37,223 nt of DNA, from IMG/VR virus record IMGVR_UViG_3300042898_000256, positions 1-37,223 of that record, one strand, 5' to 3'. Position numbers and translations under genes: made by a program. The DNA comes from a virus. The number at the start of each line of letters is the position of its first letter. Within the stretch, counting starts at the first letter, position 1. This document shows positions 1,072-37,223 of this stretch, piece after piece. Under the pieces are notes generated by a model. That model had not been told where the DNA came from. It did no database searches and saw nothing but the letters and a program-made list of their open reading frames with translations.

Positions 1072-3378
1072 GTGAAAGATTTCGTTGATCATCTTACCAG
1101 ACTCGCCCCAGAGGGCGAAACTTTTTTGCTGGTACGCCAAAAGCCCCAACTGAGGGAAGGCGAGATGCAGTTTCACGCCAACGGCGCCATCAAGGCCACT
1201 TGGCCAGCCATGTTGCCCACGGCCAAGGTCAAGCCCGAGTGGGCCATCTACGGCAACACCGCGAGCTTCATCATCGACCGCTTCAAGGATGGCCACCCCG
1301 GCGCCAGTGCTGCCGCGTGCGAGTACGTGCTGGTGATGGTGCTGGACGACGTGGGTGACCCTGAAAAGGCCCCCAACGTCCCGCCGCTTGAGCCGACGTG
1401 GAAGATCGAGACCAGCCCCGGCTCGTTCCAATGGGGCTACGTGTTCAGCGAGCAGCCCACCAAGGCCGAGTTCAGCGCGGCGATTGCCGCCATTGCCGAG
1501 GCGGGTTACACCGACAAAGGCGCGATTAACGCAGTGCGCAATTTCCGCATTCCCGGCTCGATCAACCTCAAACCTGGCCGCAACAACTTTGCCGCCCAGT
1601 TGCGCGAGTTCAAGCCCGAGCGTGACTTCACCCTTGAGCAGATCTGCGCCGCCCTGAACGTGACGCCTGGCGAAGCCGAGGATGCCCACCGCCCGATCCG
1701 CATCTCCGACGACGGCACTGACGACGTGATGGTGTGGCTTTCTGACAACGGCCTGCTGCTGTCCAAGCCCAACCAAGAGGGCTGGGCCGGTGTCATCTGC
1801 CCCAACTCAGCCGAGCACACCGACGGTAACCCCGAGGGCCGCTACCTGCCCGCCAGCCGCGCTTACTGCTGCCTGCACTCGCACTGCACTGAGCTGGACT
1901 CGTCCGTGTTCCTGCAATGGGTGGCCGACAACGGTGGCCCCAAGCACACCCCCGGCCTGCGCGAGGAGCTGCTGGTCACCGTGATGGAGTCAGCCCTCAG
2001 TAAGCTAGCGCCTACTCCGCAATATCCTGATACCGCCGCCGTAGTGGTGGCCGAGGTCGAGCGTAAGCAGCAGGGCCGTGTTGATATGGCTGACTGGTAT
2101 GAGCGTTTTGCCTATGTGCAGTCTGATGATGGTTACTTTGACATGATTGACCGCCGATCCTTAACGCGGGGCGCATTTAACGCCACGTTTCGCCACGTGT
2201 CTTGCAAGTCAATACACACGCTGCGTAAGATTGAGGCATCCATTTGTTACGATGAAAACCGCCAAGCCAAGGGCGCCCATGTTTTAGCTGGCCTGACTTA
2301 TGCAGCGGGCGAGACTATTCTTTGCGCCCGTGATGGCCTTGTGTATGGCAACCAGTGGCGCAATGCGCGTCCTGACGTGTCTGGTGTGTCGCCTGCTGGC
2401 GTTCAGCGTTGGCTTGACCACGTTGAGCGCCTGTTGCCTGATGAGCGTGAACGTGCGCACGTTCTTGACGTGATGGCGTTTAAGGTGCAGCACCCCAGCA
2501 AGAAAATCAACCACGCCGTTTTGCACATTGGCGTGCCTGGTGCGGGTAAGGATTTGATGTGGCTCCCAATGCAGTGGGCCATTGATGGCGGCACTTCGCT
2601 TAATGTGGAGAACATCCAAAACGCCGACATCATGAGTCAATGGGGCTACTCTTATGAGCGTGAAATGCTGGTGTTCCAAGAGTTACGCCAAGCTGAAGCC
2701 CGTGACCGCCGCGCCCTTGAAAATCACTTAAAACCCATTATTGCCGCCCCGCCTGAATATTTAACCGTGAACCGCAAGGGCCAGCACCCATACCAAGCCC
2801 TAAACCGTCTGTTTGTGCTGGCGTTCTCTAATGAATCAATTCCAATCACCCTGCCCTCAGATGATCGGCGATGGTTTGTGGTGCGTTCGTCTGCTGGTCG
2901 CATGGGCTTGGGCGAGGGTAAGCAGTTATTTGACTGGTATCACGCGGGTGGCTTTGCCAGCATCGCCGTTTGGCTTCACTCCCGTGACGTGTCCGCTTTC
3001 AATCCTGGTGAGTCGCCGTTTATGACTGACGCAAAATCCATCATGATCGAGTCGGGCATGAGCGGCGCTGAGTCTTTCTTGACTGAATTGATGCGTAACC
3101 GTTCCAGCGAGTTCGCTGCTGGCGCTGTCGGTGGCCCTTGGCAGGCACTTTGTGACCGTCTGACGGGCCAAGCCCCGCAAGGCATGAAAATCCCCGTAGC
3201 AGCGCTGATGCACGCCTTCCGTGAAGCGGGTTGGGTTGATATGGGTCTATTGAAGTCACGGGCCAACACTACAAAGAAACACATCTACGCAGCGCCTGAG
3301 ATGGTCAATAAGACCCGTTCAGAGTTGCGCGATCTGGTGCAACCCGAGATAAAAACGCCGCTTATGCGGGTGAAATGA
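1072..3378 (+). CDS. Primase-helicase (RepB/AEP-type primase fused to D5/P4-like SF3 helicase, DUF5906-like)
   Basis: This is a 768-residue replication protein that probably makes primers and unwinds DNA for the phage polymerase. The GTG start at 1072 is preceded by AAAGGAG at 1059-1065 with six bases of spacing. The N-terminal part resembles archaeo-eukaryotic/RepB-type primases of phages: LDDVGD at 91-96, ETSPGSFQWGY near 113-123 and RNFRIPGSINLK near 156-167. A Cys/His-rich patch at 243-272 (CPNSAEH, then CCLHSHC) looks like a zinc finger. The C-terminal half has a Walker A motif GVPGAGKD at 487-494 and a Walker B-like MLVFQE segment about 55 residues later. The coding sequence up to about nt 1990 is rich in G/C third positions, while the rest uses many more T/A endings, which suggests two parts with different histories. 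It follows the polymerase directly and ends at a strong hairpin terminator. Confidence 0.85.
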   Translation: MKDFVDHLTRLAPEGETFLLVRQKPQLREGEMQFHANGAIKATWPAMLPTAKVKPEWAIYGNTASFIIDRFKDGHPGASAAACEYVLVMVLDDVGDPEKAPNVPPLEPTWKIETSPGSFQWGYVFSEQPTKAEFSAAIAAIAEAGYTDKGAINAVRNFRIPGSINLKPGRNNFAAQLREFKPERDFTLEQICAALNVTPGEAEDAHRPIRISDDGTDDVMVWLSDNGLLLSKPNQEGWAGVICPNSAEHTDGNPEGRYLPASRAYCCLHSHCTELDSSVFLQWVADNGGPKHTPGLREELLVTVMESALSKLAPTPQYPDTAAVVVAEVERKQQGRVDMADWYERFAYVQSDDGYFDMIDRRSLTRGAFNATFRHVSCKSIHTLRKIEASICYDENRQAKGAHVLAGLTYAAGETILCARDGLVYGNQWRNARPDVSGVSPAGVQRWLDHVERLLPDERERAHVLDVMAFKVQHPSKKINHAVLHIGVPGAGKDLMWLPMQWAIDGGTSLNVENIQNADIMSQWGYSYEREMLVFQELRQAEARDRRALENHLKPIIAAPPEYLTVNRKGQHPYQALNRLFVLAFSNESIPITLPSDDRRWFVVRSSAGRMGLGEGKQLFDWYHAGGFASIAVWLHSRDVSAFNPGESPFMTDAKSIMIESGMSGAESFLTELMRNRSSEFAAGAVGGPWQALCDRLTGQAPQGMKIPVAALMHAFREAGWVDMGLLKSRANTTKKHIYAAPEMVNKTRSELRDLVQPEIKTPLMRVK

Positions 3379-4809: not shown

Positions 4810-5571
4810 TCAAGCCTTGCCAGCCTTCAAAATCTTATCGGCTGCCCCGAATATGCGCTGCGCTGACTTGTCGGTTATTTCACCACCAGCTAACCAGCCT
4901 TGGATGTAGCCGCGTGATTCGTTCAAGCCGGGTAAGTCAAGAACACTGCAAAGGATGTACGCCACTGATTCGGCCTCAACTTCGCGAATGTCACGTGGTG
5001 TAGTCTCGCTATCGTGCATAGCGCCTTCAAGCGTATGACCAAGCACTACATGCGCCAACTCATGAAAACGTGTTTTATGGGGCAAGGCTGCGACCGGGTT
5101 TATCGCTATGTTTCGCCCGGTGGCGTAACCCTGCGAGTTGCCATTAGCTGAGTCATAACGCACTTGAAGAATGTCAAGGGCAGTTAGGGCAGTGTCAGCG
5201 CACCAGTTAGGTGTGTTGACTTCGTTCGCAAAATCTTCGCCTTCGGTTTGATCGAGGGTGAACCAGTTATTTTTCAGGGTGAAAAGGGAAAACACTTCAC
5301 CAGTTTTTGCGCCTGCGTCGTCTTTTTTGTTGATTGTCACTGGCATAACCAGTGCGATCGCCTTCGAGCCTTTTTTAACTTGCCTGCCCAATTCTTGCCA
5401 TTTTTTGAACGTCGCTATCGGTGACAGTGGCATATCACGTGATGCGAGTTGCGAATAGGCAAGCATTTGATTTCCGATGCTGTAATTGTGAAAAGTGCTG
5501 TAGCACTTGCTCACAATACCGGGTTGATTGACAGCATCGGATAAGAGGGTTGACCAGTTGACGTTTGACAT
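4810..5571 (-). CDS. ardC: ArdC-like antirestriction protein (ssDNA-binding domain plus zinc metallopeptidase)
   Basis: This 253-residue protein matches the ArdC layout: an N-terminal single-strand DNA-binding domain and a C-terminal zincin-type metallopeptidase domain. The N-terminal part has the family pattern around 27-80 (FHNYSIGNQMLAYSQ, then FKKWQELGRQVKKGSKAIALVMPV). The peptidase zinc motif HELAH is at 170-174 and the downstream acidic helix EVEAES is at 197-202, supplying the third ligand. Related plasmid proteins protect incoming DNA from host restriction enzymes. It is cytoplasmic, with no signal peptide. It is the second gene of a leftward operon whose promoter is near 5920-5944, well placed for early expression on entry. 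Two hairpins at 5601-5637 lie between it and the first gene and may set its level. Confidence 0.85.
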   Translation of the reverse strand: MSNVNWSTLLSDAVNQPGIVSKCYSTFHNYSIGNQMLAYSQLASRDMPLSPIATFKKWQELGRQVKKGSKAIALVMPVTINKKDDAGAKTGEVFSLFTLKNNWFTLDQTEGEDFANEVNTPNWCADTALTALDILQVRYDSANGNSQGYATGRNIAINPVAALPHKTRFHELAHVVLGHTLEGAMHDSETTPRDIREVEAESVAYILCSVLDLPGLNESRGYIQGWLAGGEITDKSAQRIFGAADKILKAGKA

Positions 5572-5887: not shown

Positions 5888-5916
5888 GATGTGCTCCTTT
5901 GGTTGTTGATGTATCT

Positions 5917-5944
5917 AGTGTACGGGATTCTTTTACACTGTCAA
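5917..5944 (-). promoter_or_regulatory. Leftward sigma70-type promoter of the accessory operon
   Basis: On the minus strand TTGACA (plus coordinates 5939-5944) is separated by 16 bases from TACACT (5917-5922). The predicted transcript starts around 5910 and reaches the ATG at 5887 with its strong SD. The spacer contains one arm of a 10-bp inverted repeat that also occurs upstream of the -35 box, so regulation by a bound protein is likely. Confidence 0.7.
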
Positions 5945-5963
5945 GCGTTACGCGTAAAAGAAT
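5927..5963. promoter_or_regulatory. Operator-like inverted repeats over the leftward promoter
   Basis: ATTCTTTTAC (5927-5936) and GTAAAAGAAT (5954-5963) form a perfect 10-bp inverted repeat with 17 bases between the arms. The -35 box lies between them and one arm lies in the promoter spacer. A second perfect palindrome, TTACGCGTAA, sits at 5948-5957. Such an arrangement is typical of repressor sites. A related element occurs at the second leftward promoter (33498-33526). Confidence 0.6.
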
Positions 5964-5982
5964 TTGTAACAGTTTGTAACAG
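5963..5982. repeat. Tandem 10-bp direct repeat
   Basis: TTTGTAACAG occurs twice back to back (5963-5972 and 5973-5982), immediately upstream of the leftward promoter. It may be a binding site for an activator or part of the operator set. Confidence 0.6.
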
Positions 5983-6076
5983 GCGTTTTGTGGGTGAGTG
6001 TGTGTGTTGGTGAGTAGTGGCGTGGGCGATTAATGGCGAACGTGCAAAGCCCCATAAAACAAGGCTTTGAGCTGTC

Positions 6077-6277
6077 TGTGGGTTATTGTGGGTTATGGTT
6101 TTCTAAACTACCATAAACACCAACTGTTATAGATACTGTAAGGGGTTAAAGCGGCGCTGCGATTTAAAACGCTGCTCAGACTGCCCACAATCACCCACGT
6201 TTTGCACTCACGCCCACTTCCCCATGCCATAAGTTAGCCGTTACTAACTTCAAAACCATAACCCACAATCACCCACA
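6077..6277. repeat. 26-bp inverted repeat built from iteron-like 15-mers
   Basis: The 26 bases at 6077-6102 match the reverse complement of 6252-6277 at 25 of 26 positions, with 149 bases between arms. Both arms contain the 15-mer CCCACAATCACCCAC (exact at 6262-6276, inverted with one mismatch at 6078-6092), and a third exact copy lies at 6184-6198. Three copies of one unit in mixed orientation within 200 bases resemble binding sites for a replication initiator or terminase. Confidence 0.75.
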
Positions 6278-6294
6278 AATGTTTTTATACAGTG

Positions 6295-6310
6295 CTGTGT
6301 TTGCATACAG
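6295..6310. promoter_or_regulatory. LexA-like SOS box
   Basis: CTGT, eight bases, ACAG fits the classic proteobacterial LexA consensus, and the flanks (TG before, TA after) extend the match. It lies about 200 bases upstream of the late promoter candidate. One exact match of this looseness is expected by chance in a genome of this size about once in two, so placement is the main support. Confidence 0.3.
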
Positions 6311-6404
6311 TAGCAGCATGAAGCGGCATGCTGATTGCCGTGAGCAGTCACAACCGCCCACAAAATGTTAGTAAGCACACACTGACCAAGTGGTGGTTTG
6401 AGCT

Positions 6405-6423
6405 GGAGGGGGGAGGGGGAGGG
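6405..6423 (+). other. G-rich run with G-quadruplex potential
   Basis: Nineteen bases consist only of G with three single A interruptions, giving runs of 2, 6, 5 and 3 Gs. A two- to three-tier quadruplex is possible on the plus strand. It lies between the LexA-like box and the terminase promoter candidate. Confidence 0.5.
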
Positions 6424-6484
6424 CCGAGCGGACCGGTCAACGGTAGCGTAGCGTTCAGCAACAATTTTTATTTTTACCAGCACA

Positions 6485-6517
6485 CTGCAAAAGATTTTTT
6501 ATTTTTTGATATAAGAT
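6485..6517 (+). promoter_or_regulatory. Candidate late promoter ahead of the terminase genes
   Basis: CTGCAA (6485-6490) and GATATA/TATAAG (6508-6515) are spaced like a weak sigma70 promoter, within an AT-rich tract. The sequence ATTTTTTG followed by ATAAGAT after two bases (6501-6517) also occurs at the rightward promoter near 34087-34105, with four bases between the halves, so both may be read by the same factor. The first gene starts at 6548 without an evident SD. Confidence 0.45.
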
Positions 6518-6547
6518 GCACGCACGCATCCACGCGGCCATACATCT

Positions 6548-36187: not shown

Positions 36188-37223
36188 ATGAATCTTTGGC
36201 TTGACTTTGAGACCCGCAGCCGCTGTGACCTGAAGGCCAAGGGCGTCTACAACTACGCGCAGGACGCGAGCACCGAAGTGCTGTGCATGTCCTACGCTTT
36301 TGACGATGGTGAGGTCGTCACTTGGTTGCCGGGCCAGACCCTGCCTGACTTCACGGGCCACACGATCTACGCCCACAACGCCGCTTTCGAGCGGTTAATT
36401 TTTTGGTATGTCTTGCAGAAGAACTACCCCCTCGAATCTTTTTACTGCACCGCAGCGCAGGCCCGCGCCAACTGTGCGCCTGGCTCGCTGGAAGACGTCG
36501 GCCGCTTCGCTGGCGCTGACATGCGCAAGGACCACCGGGGCAGTCAACTGATCCGGCTGCTGTCGCTGCCGCAGGCCAACGGCCAGTTCCGCGAAGACGC
36601 CGCCCTGATGGCCGAGATGGTCGCCTACTGCGAACAAGACGTGCGGTCTATGCGCGCCGTCAGCAAAGCCCTGCGGCCACTGTCTGCGGACGAGCTGGCC
36701 GACTATCACACCAACGAGCGCATCAACGACCGTGGCGTGCTGGTGGATGTGCCGCTGTGCCAAGCCGCTGTCAAGTACTCCGCCGACGAGACCGTCGAGA
36801 TTCAGCAGATCGTGTCCGAGGTGACCGAAGGCGTCATCACCAGCGTGCGCTCGCCTAAGATGCGCGAGTGGGTGCTGGAGCGCGTCGGCCCCGAGGCCAA
36901 GAAGCTGATGTGGACGGGCGAGAAGTATTCGATTGACAAGACTGTGCGGGCCAACCTGCTCGCGATGGAAGACCCCGATGAGATTCCGCCCCATGTTGCA
37001 GACGTCATCCAGTGCGCGGACGACCTCTGGGCGTCTTCGGTTGCGAAATTTGCGCGGCTCTCCAACCTCGCCGATGACGAGGATCACCGAGTCCGCGGCG
37101 CTTTCGTTTTTGCTGGAGGGGCTGCCACCGGCCGTGCGTCGAGCTACGGCGCGCAAGTTCACAACTTTACCCGCAAGTGCGCCAAAGAGCCTGATGAAGT
37201 ACGCCACGCTATGGTGCGTGGCC
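36188..37223 (+). CDS. Family A DNA polymerase, N-terminal part (continues at 1-1014)
   Basis: This is the 5' part of the phage DNA polymerase. It starts at ATG 36188 and is still open at the end of the window; the reading frame continues in frame from base 1. The 3'-5' proofreading exonuclease domain is clear: Exo I LWLDFET with Asp6 and Glu8, Exo II YAHNAAFE at 61-68, and Exo III YCEQD with Tyr147 and Asp151. The beginning of the polymerase domain follows (NERINDRGVLVDVPLCQAAV near 178-197, then the GGAATGRASSYGAQVHNF region that precedes motif A). The whole protein is 640 residues. No clear SD is seen, and a structured leader precedes it. Confidence 0.95.
   Translation, partial: MNLWLDFETRSRCDLKAKGVYNYAQDASTEVLCMSYAFDDGEVVTWLPGQTLPDFTGHTIYAHNAAFERLIFWYVLQKNYPLESFYCTAAQARANCAPGSLEDVGRFAGADMRKDHRGSQLIRLLSLPQANGQFREDAALMAEMVAYCEQDVRSMRAVSKALRPLSADELADYHTNERINDRGVLVDVPLCQAAVKYSADETVEIQQIVSEVTEGVITSVRSPKMREWVLERVGPEAKKLMWTGEKYSIDKTVRANLLAMEDPDEIPPHVADVIQCADDLWASSVAKFARLSNLADDEDHRVRGAFVFAGGAATGRASSYGAQVHNFTRKCAKEPDEVRHAMVRG
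37097..37223. repeat. 127-bp terminal direct repeat, right copy
   Basis: Identical to bases 1-127 and in the same polymerase reading frame. Removing one copy leaves a circular map of 37,096 bp. Confidence 0.95.

Follow-up and report, generated by a model that had tools for sequence, protein, structure and literature searches.

Box arrays ahead of the terminase genes co-vary with the predicted wing of a phage primase-helicase and probably form an iteron-type replication origin

RESULTS

The type of a short-box array follows the primase-helicase

We analysed a virus record of IMG/VR in its full length of 37,223 bases (hereafter the window) together with related loci. The region directly upstream of TerS carries an array of 10-bp boxes, and the box type follows the primase-helicase, not the adjacent terminase genes. 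From sequence comparison, the predicted wing of this primase-helicase is very likely what reads the boxes, and the co-evolution of boxes and wing is well supported. By analogy with known systems, the region is probably a replication origin of the iteron type, at which the phage would use its own primase-helicase as initiator. This provides a specific candidate origin and initiator for a large group of uncultivated freshwater phages.

The window begins and ends with an exact direct repeat of 127 bases (1-127 and 37097-37223), which looks like the assembly overlap of a circular or permuted genome. PHROG and domain matches identified a DNA polymerase, whose gene lies in two pieces, one at each contig end, as well as the primase-helicase, an exonuclease, a helicase, TerL and a portal protein. 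From 34279, the replication genes extend rightward past the contig ends as far as 3378, convergent with a leftward run of small ORFs about 2.4 kb long (5887 to 3458). One of these leftward ORFs (4810-5571, minus strand) encodes an antirestriction protein of the ArdC kind, which also carries a domain resembling M78-type peptidases (ArdcN 4.2e-11, Peptidase_M78 9e-05). A large terminase/structural operon extends rightward of the array. The first-pass annotation had placed the repeats at the divergent start of two big operons and ahead of the terminase; the position ahead of the terminase and the rightward operon were confirmed, and the leftward side proved to hold only the small ORFs. Its description of the region as gene-free is an interpretation, as there are two overlapping ORFs, one of 77 and one of 84 codons, that reach into this region.

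Named relatives of the phage are MW202483, with an annotated P22-like coat and portal, and DSL-LC05, for which the available part of PMC10611076 proposes the family 'Luchaoviridae'. Scanning bacterial genomes with the primase-helicase gave three loci; because two of them (L371 and L372) sit in one Rhodoferax MAG, betaproteobacteria are suggested as the hosts of the phage group, with Rhodoferax a plausible host.

Organization of the box array in the window

The inverted repeat and the three copies of a 15-mer reported in the first-pass annotation were both present. The arms of the repeat (6077-6102 and 6252-6277, 26 nt each) are complementary at 25 of 26 positions (96%) and lie 149 nt apart, and 200 exact dinucleotide shuffles of 5888-6547 yielded no inverted repeat of 26 nt with at most one mismatch. 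Across the whole window there are three copies of the 15-mer GTGGGTKATTGTGGG, each of them in this region, at 6078 (plus strand, T form), 6184 and 6262 (both minus strand, G form). The 15-mer is not the repeat unit but comprises two head-to-tail 10-bp boxes, 10 bp apart, which read ATNACCCACA on the opposite strand. Each such box is one unit, and the 25/26 inverted repeat consists of two tandem box pairs in opposite orientation. The features of the region are as follows.

5917-5944, minus strand: promoter-like site with TTGACA and TACACT separated by 16 nt, preceding the leftward genes and lying beyond the array
5987-6365, both strands: whole box array, nearly symmetrical about 6177
5986-6002 and 6349-6365: outer arms, also complementary in part
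5989-6008, minus strand: box pair CTCACCCACA (8/9) and AACACACACA (7/9), 10 bp apart
6005-6030, minus strand: two weak boxes (7/9 each) at 6005 and 6021
6077-6096, minus strand: box pair, ATAACCCACA twice (9/9 each), 10 bp apart; left arm of the inverted repeat
6097-6179: gap separating the left and right sets, free of boxes at 7/9 or above; candidate site of melting
6180-6199, plus strand: box pair ACTGCCCACA (7/9) and ATCACCCACG (8/9), 10 bp apart; contains the third 15-mer
6258-6277, plus strand: box pair ATAACCCACA and ATCACCCACA (9/9 each), 10 bp apart; right arm of the inverted repeat
6353-6362, plus strand: weak box ACCGCCCACA (7/9)
6405-6513, plus strand: block between array and TerS, purine-rich at about 6405-6424, then AT-rich at about 6460-6513

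Minus-strand boxes thus occupy the left side (5989-6096) and plus-strand boxes the right side (6180-6362), mostly as 10-bp tandem pairs. Within 5888-6547, six boxes matched at least 8 of the 9 specified bases, against a mean of 0.26 and a maximum of 3 in 500 shuffles, and 11 matched at least 7 (mean 2.75, maximum 9); these shuffle figures are optimistic because the consensus was derived from the same DNA. In a cruder, consensus-free count of 7-mers the window did not stand out, with 3 copies against a shuffle maximum of 4. The block at 6405-6513 is independent of box class, AGGGCCGA being found in 90 of 111 loci and CCCTACCC in 86 of 111, and the AT content averaged over loci is 0.72 at -50 to -25 from TerS. 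This block is a candidate melting, promoter or packaging element.

An array between divergent genes, with a promoter-like site just to its left, could also be an operator, at which the primase-helicase or a linked regulator controls the divergent leftward and terminase operons while replication starts elsewhere. The covariation described below would fit any function of wing binding. Against this, about a dozen boxes spread over some 400 bp and read by a primase-helicase make an origin-like layout, and the sole promoter-like site lies outside the boxes and is weak evidence, one site having been found where 0.9 were expected by chance. We regard an operator as unlikely and keep to a replication origin as the probable role of the array.

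Box arrays switch sequence between related phages

The sample comprised 129 upstream regions, the window included, from among the TerL and TerS scan matches listed, and reduced to 111 distinct loci carrying TerS in the same setting as the window. Most of these loci have a box array in the homologous intergenic region; the commonest 7-mer exceeded all 100 shuffles in 88 of the 111 in the consensus-free count. The box sequence switches wholesale between lineages, with ATTGTCCACA, ATAGCCAACA, ATGACCCAAA, ATGACTTACA, ATGACTCACA, ATGACCCACA, ATCACCCACA and ATAGCCCACA as the repeated units; class ATCACCCACA consists of the window and four other loci. The classes share the frame AT-N-R-Y-Y-N-A-M-A, with R at position 4, and the window boxes conform to it, having A there. 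Other repeats (CACTAAC, TCAGCAA) were seen in a few loci, and some loci could not be classed (5/113). When exact cores were counted in 23 contigs, 14 carried one core at least seven times within 600 bp, and no other class exceeded four in any; the counts in the remaining nine were too low to judge (2-6).

The opposed arrangement of the boxes recurs among the 183 loci in which a box was registered. Of the 705 boxes on the left, at -700 to -451 from TerS, 513 are minus-strand boxes; on the right, at -400 to -151, plus-strand boxes make up 894 of 1273. In nine loci, the distance across the gap from the start of the minus-strand set to that of the plus-strand set is 77 to 117 bp. AT content in the gap averages 0.61 versus 0.55-0.59 upstream over the 183 loci, a small rise. 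Same-strand neighbours less than 25 bp apart are mostly spaced by 9 bp (677/898), and 10-bp spacing prevails in the cores ACCCACA (33/48) and ACTCACA (27/29), the window's clade included. Array geometry, then, switches along with sequence: 9 bp in nearly all classes and mostly 10 bp in ACCCACA/ACTCACA.

A second repeated motif, CACTAAC / GTTAGTAAGCACACACTAAC, was seen in relatives of several box classes and in the window at about 6365-6391; in a few loci, namely L059, L083 and L081, it ranked first among the repeats.

Box class follows the primase-helicase and not the terminase

The gene whose history best matches the boxes lies 2.6 kb from the array, which begins at 5987, with the convergent gene run between them.

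1072-3378, plus strand: primase-helicase, 768 aa (PHROG DNA primase 2.3e-22, DUF5906 1.3e-07); proposed initiator

Its RepB_primase match (0.004) falls short of the cut-off for that family and leaves the primase type unsettled. We counted changes of box class on gene trees built without the loci lacking a class label (5/113), those short on the primase-helicase, and L150, which has a premature stop. For 75 loci, the class changed 12 times on the primase-helicase tree (minimum 7) versus 25 times on each of the TerS and TerL trees, and shuffled class labels gave a mean of 32.5-32.7 changes. In 22 contigs we scored 14 gene segments (12 other genes, with the polymerase as two halves), three having been skipped as lacking homologues; the primase-helicase showed no excess class change, and the 13 other segments showed 2-6. 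Single comparisons agreed. Six loci whose TerS is 97-99% identical to that of the window have boxes of class ATTGTCCACA and primase-helicases only 65-76% identical over the part compared, and in three loci of the window's own class the primase-helicase is 92-94% and TerS 88-95% identical.

These counts bear directly on the other function put forward in the first-pass annotation, a terminase recognition site (pac or cos) bound by TerS. The array does lie directly upstream of TerS; the 25 class changes on both terminase trees and the six near-identical TerS proteins beside boxes of another class speak against it, and the block at 6405-6513 is a better place for a packaging site than the boxes. 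The terminase site was not borne out, and we consider it very improbable; TerS was likewise rejected as the box reader. The primase-helicase, which the first-pass annotation had proposed as the second protein to assay for binding, is supported as reader by the 12 versus 25 changes and by the wing residues that track box bases in the hold-out test below.

Two premature stops were seen in the primase-helicase frame, an internal one in L150 and one TAA in G021 (the contig of L046); they reflect sequencing error or decay.

The C-terminal domain is predicted to be a winged helix

An AlphaFold2 model of the C-terminal 154 residues, computed with 74 family members, has the winged-helix order of elements, with block pLDDT of 89-94 over residues 665-754.

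3061-3342, plus strand: C-terminal winged-helix domain, residues about 664-757 (AlphaFold2 model)
3253-3276, plus strand: wing loop, codons 728-735; K728, R730, A731, N732 and T733 in the window

In the model, residues 728-735 form the loop between strands 722-727 and 736-740, the last two strands, and are predicted to be the wing. Several residues of the third helix (709-719) are invariant. DNA recognition led by the wing is known from the RFX proteins. Structural neighbours found with VIA-align are mostly winged helices with middling Z scores (4.0-6.3). Foldseek with the domain model gave no match in the PDB at E of 0.001 or better, and a profile of the domain against PDB sequences gave three matches of E 0.19-1.1, none of them P4, among the matches listed. 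The full-length model of the primase-helicase is poor (mean pLDDT 62).

Single wing residues are linked to single box bases

Sister clades of different box class provided seven contrasts, in which fixed differences in the primase-helicase gather at its C-terminus. In the cleanest contrast, residues 728-763 account for 10 of the 12 fixed differences. Position 733 differs in six contrasts, 728 and 746 in five each and 731 in four; each of the five contrasts that involve class A shows a difference at both 728 and 733. Clades E and Ep, whose boxes differ only at base 6, a base without a partner residue, show 32 differences, of which the C-terminal third has one and the wing none. In the window's own contrast, G versus Ep, 155 differences are spread over the whole protein. 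By class, D or E at 733 occurs only with T5, and R is found at 730 throughout, apart from the two ATGACCCAAA clades and the diverged L160. K728 goes with C7; A728 also occurs with C7 (ATGACCCAAA; ATAGCCCACA in L046).

Ranking 655 alignment columns over 162 registered loci put 733 first for bases 3, 4 and 5, 728 for base 7 and 730 for base 9, with P values that overstate independence because the 162 loci form only 17 clusters at 85% identity. The lead of 730 at base 9 was clear (0.66 versus 0.32 for the next column); that of 733 at base 4 was narrow (0.21 versus 0.20), and base 4 had some weight in the register. Base 6 had no clear partner residue, and base 8 was invariant, an outcome that the register rule favours.

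The links held in a hold-out set. Two further scans with other primase-helicases gave 160 loci among the matches listed; TerS was found in 133, and removal of 14 duplicates and 7 training loci left 112. Boxes were registered by a fixed rule, blind to the protein, which used positions 1, 2, 8 and 10 and, at half weight, 4 and 6. The register cut-off was passed by 84 loci and failed by 28. Among the 84 registered loci, R730 occurred with C9 in 75 of 76 and other residues in 0 of 8; D or E at 733 occurred with T5 in 24 of 28 and others in 0 of 56; and K728 occurred with C7 in 28 of 29 and others in 17 of 55. Collapsed to 55 distinct box-wing combinations, the figures were 46/47 versus 0/8 for R730/C9, 15/19 versus 0/36 for D/E733/T5 and 19/20 versus 12/35 for K728/C7. 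All 112 unfiltered loci gave less sharp associations: 94/100 versus 2/12 for R730/C9 (Fisher p 8e-9), 26/38 versus 3/74 for D/E733/T5 (p 3e-13) and 33/39 versus 19/73 for K728/C7 (p 2e-9). The 28 loci below the cut-off, whose boxes are doubtful, showed no significant association on their own.

Among the registered loci, L246 was an exception in all three tests and looks like a box called on the wrong strand; L225, L367 and L368 combine D733 with C5 and are apparently genuine. Among the loci that failed registration, L365, L244, L287, L234, L358, L344, L370 and L354 go against the D/E733 rule, most of them on doubtful box calls, and L244 and L358 may be two further D733 exceptions. L212 and L238 have C9 without R730, and L287, L234, L307, L329 and L331 have R730 without C9; most of these box calls are likewise doubtful. 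The wing AREYQ, present in 35 hold-out loci, accompanies GCCAACA boxes in 20 and mixed or other boxes in 15. AREYQ thus occurs with several boxes, as if A728 left base 7 largely unread.

The three bacterial-MAG loci were considered separately. L372, with the wing KSRRHD, has ATTGTCCACA boxes, as predicted. L371, with the wing AREFQ, was missed by the automatic scan; by eye and pattern it has 12 mixed [AG]CC[ACT]ACA sites and no GTCCACA. L373 is without TerS in the locus and was left out of scoring.

Covariation of this kind concerns the base sequence of the single box. The long inverted repeat could also be extruded as a hairpin that the replication protein would recognise, a mode proposed for pRN1 and phage BIP-1 in the passages available from PMC4234260. 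Its arms are indeed 25/26 complementary; any array with both box orientations gives complementary arms, however, and the constant feature among the relatives is the direct pair at fixed 9- or 10-bp spacing. We hold a stem-loop origin to be highly improbable and return to the boxes as probable iterons. The same passages suggest that proteins combining an archaeo-eukaryotic primase, an SF3 helicase and a winged helix recognise a stem-loop rather than iterons (PMC4234260); the present primase-helicase family argues for iterons.

The last candidate reader was DnaA, from the host or as a phage DnaA-like protein. The DnaA box is TTATCCACA. The commonest box class contains TTGTCCACA, one base off TTATCCACA, and the relative MW202483 encodes a stand-alone Bac_DnaA_C protein (1.1e-17); we nevertheless find DnaA boxes scarcely credible, as the other box classes are further from the DnaA box, the box class follows a phage gene, Bac_DnaA_C had no match in the window at E up to 10, and tblastn with the MW202483 protein found no match in the other loci compared. 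DnaA of either source was ruled out as reader by the diverging classes, the lack of a Bac_DnaA_C match in the window and the tracking of the primase-helicase by box class. The MW202483 protein has 98 residues (L160:31423-31716), and the boxes of this locus (TGTAAAC type) and its wing are also diverged.

DISCUSSION

Homology of the helicase region, the winged-helix model and the covariation of residues and bases agree in pointing to the C-terminal domain as the putative box reader. The first-pass annotation had offered an origin with initiator-binding iterons as one of its two readings; the iterons, very likely read by the primase-helicase, stand, and that replication starts here is what we infer from the nature of the protein and the resemblance to the P4 and SaPI/PICI origins. 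GC skew, which had been suggested as a check, was uninformative and decides neither way: for 18 contigs of at least 33 kb, treated as circles though some may be fragments, the array lay within 10% of the skew minimum in 2 and of the maximum in 4.

In the mechanism that we propose, the winged-helix domain would dock on box pairs through its wing, residue 728 sensing base 7, 730 base 9 and 733 bases 3-5. The two opposed box sets would assemble facing initiator complexes, and the gap, or the AT-rich block beside TerS, would melt. The helicase could then load and prime, and the phage DNA polymerase would extend. When the wing changes, the whole array would change to match, such that related phages would possess mutually distinct initiator-origin pairs. 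Close to an even call, and offered tentatively, is the further proposal of a near-modular wing code (730/base 9, 728/base 7, 733/bases 3-5), in which the wing and its dozen-copy array have been re-targeted together, repeatedly and in parallel, giving initiator-origin groups that are incompatible with one another; the pressure may have come from rivals, satellites or nucleases that target origins, as described for PLE and ICP1. If true, the code would tell which origins a given phage or satellite could share with another or attack in it.

Several known systems resemble the proposed one in part. A study by Yeo in 2002 reportedly dealt with the P4 alpha protein and its origin repeats. According to the parts of PMC4234260 at hand, P4 alpha binds the origin repeats by a winged helix, so that one polypeptide primes, unwinds and binds the origin, a combination that we propose here as far as binding is concerned. 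P4 differs in having a bacterial-type (Toprim) primase (same passages); the phage C-terminal domain had no sequence match to P4 among solved structures, and the box sequence is strongly diversified across the relatives of the present phage. SaPI Rep reads iterons by its C-terminal domain (PMC7581432, in part), and PICI origins consist of two iteron sets flanking an AT-rich region (PMC6092414, in part). As excerpted in these two articles, SaPI Rep, the PICI initiators and SCCmec Cch2 share with the proposed system a helicase-type initiator with a C-terminal domain for short iterons, and their primase and helicase can be fused. Opposed box sets with a gap are present here, and AT in the gap is only slightly raised (0.61). 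In SaPI/PICI, as far as those excerpts go, the origin lies directly downstream of the initiator gene and the elements are satellites, whereas the present array belongs to a P22-like phage and is separated from the gene by convergent ORFs; we therefore did not file it as a SaPI/PICI replicon.

Natural covariation of an initiator DNA-binding domain with its origin is described for PLE RepA in the available part of PMC8263062. For PLE RepA and ICP1 Odn, the passages of PMC8263062 and PMC7145576 report that DNA-binding domain and origin co-vary and that swaps show cognate specificity; the domain there is RepA_N, without helicase or primase, and two origin groups are described, in contrast to the many box classes, the putative winged-helix wing and the single residue-to-base links of the present phages. 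The helicase region of the primase-helicase matches PDB 6k9c and 6k9e (about 9e-11), which we take to be the NrS-1 phage primase-polymerase. NrS-1 thus shares a related helicase region. By the passages available from PMC7102993, it is also a phage replication protein with an 8-nt recognition sequence; this sequence occurs twice in the genome and serves template priming, and those passages describe no box array.

A literature search, largely without subscription papers, found no description of this origin or wing code. What appears to be new is the breadth of box classes, the residue-to-base links, their location in the predicted wing, and the phage group. The many natural cognate pairs make it testable how an initiator and a multi-copy origin change specificity jointly.

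Two further motifs were noted in the relatives: TACTGTATG at the starts of leftward genes, for example in L086 and L119, and ATACAGTACTGTAT palindromes inside the intergenic region. These are perhaps a regulator site or a translation-start context.
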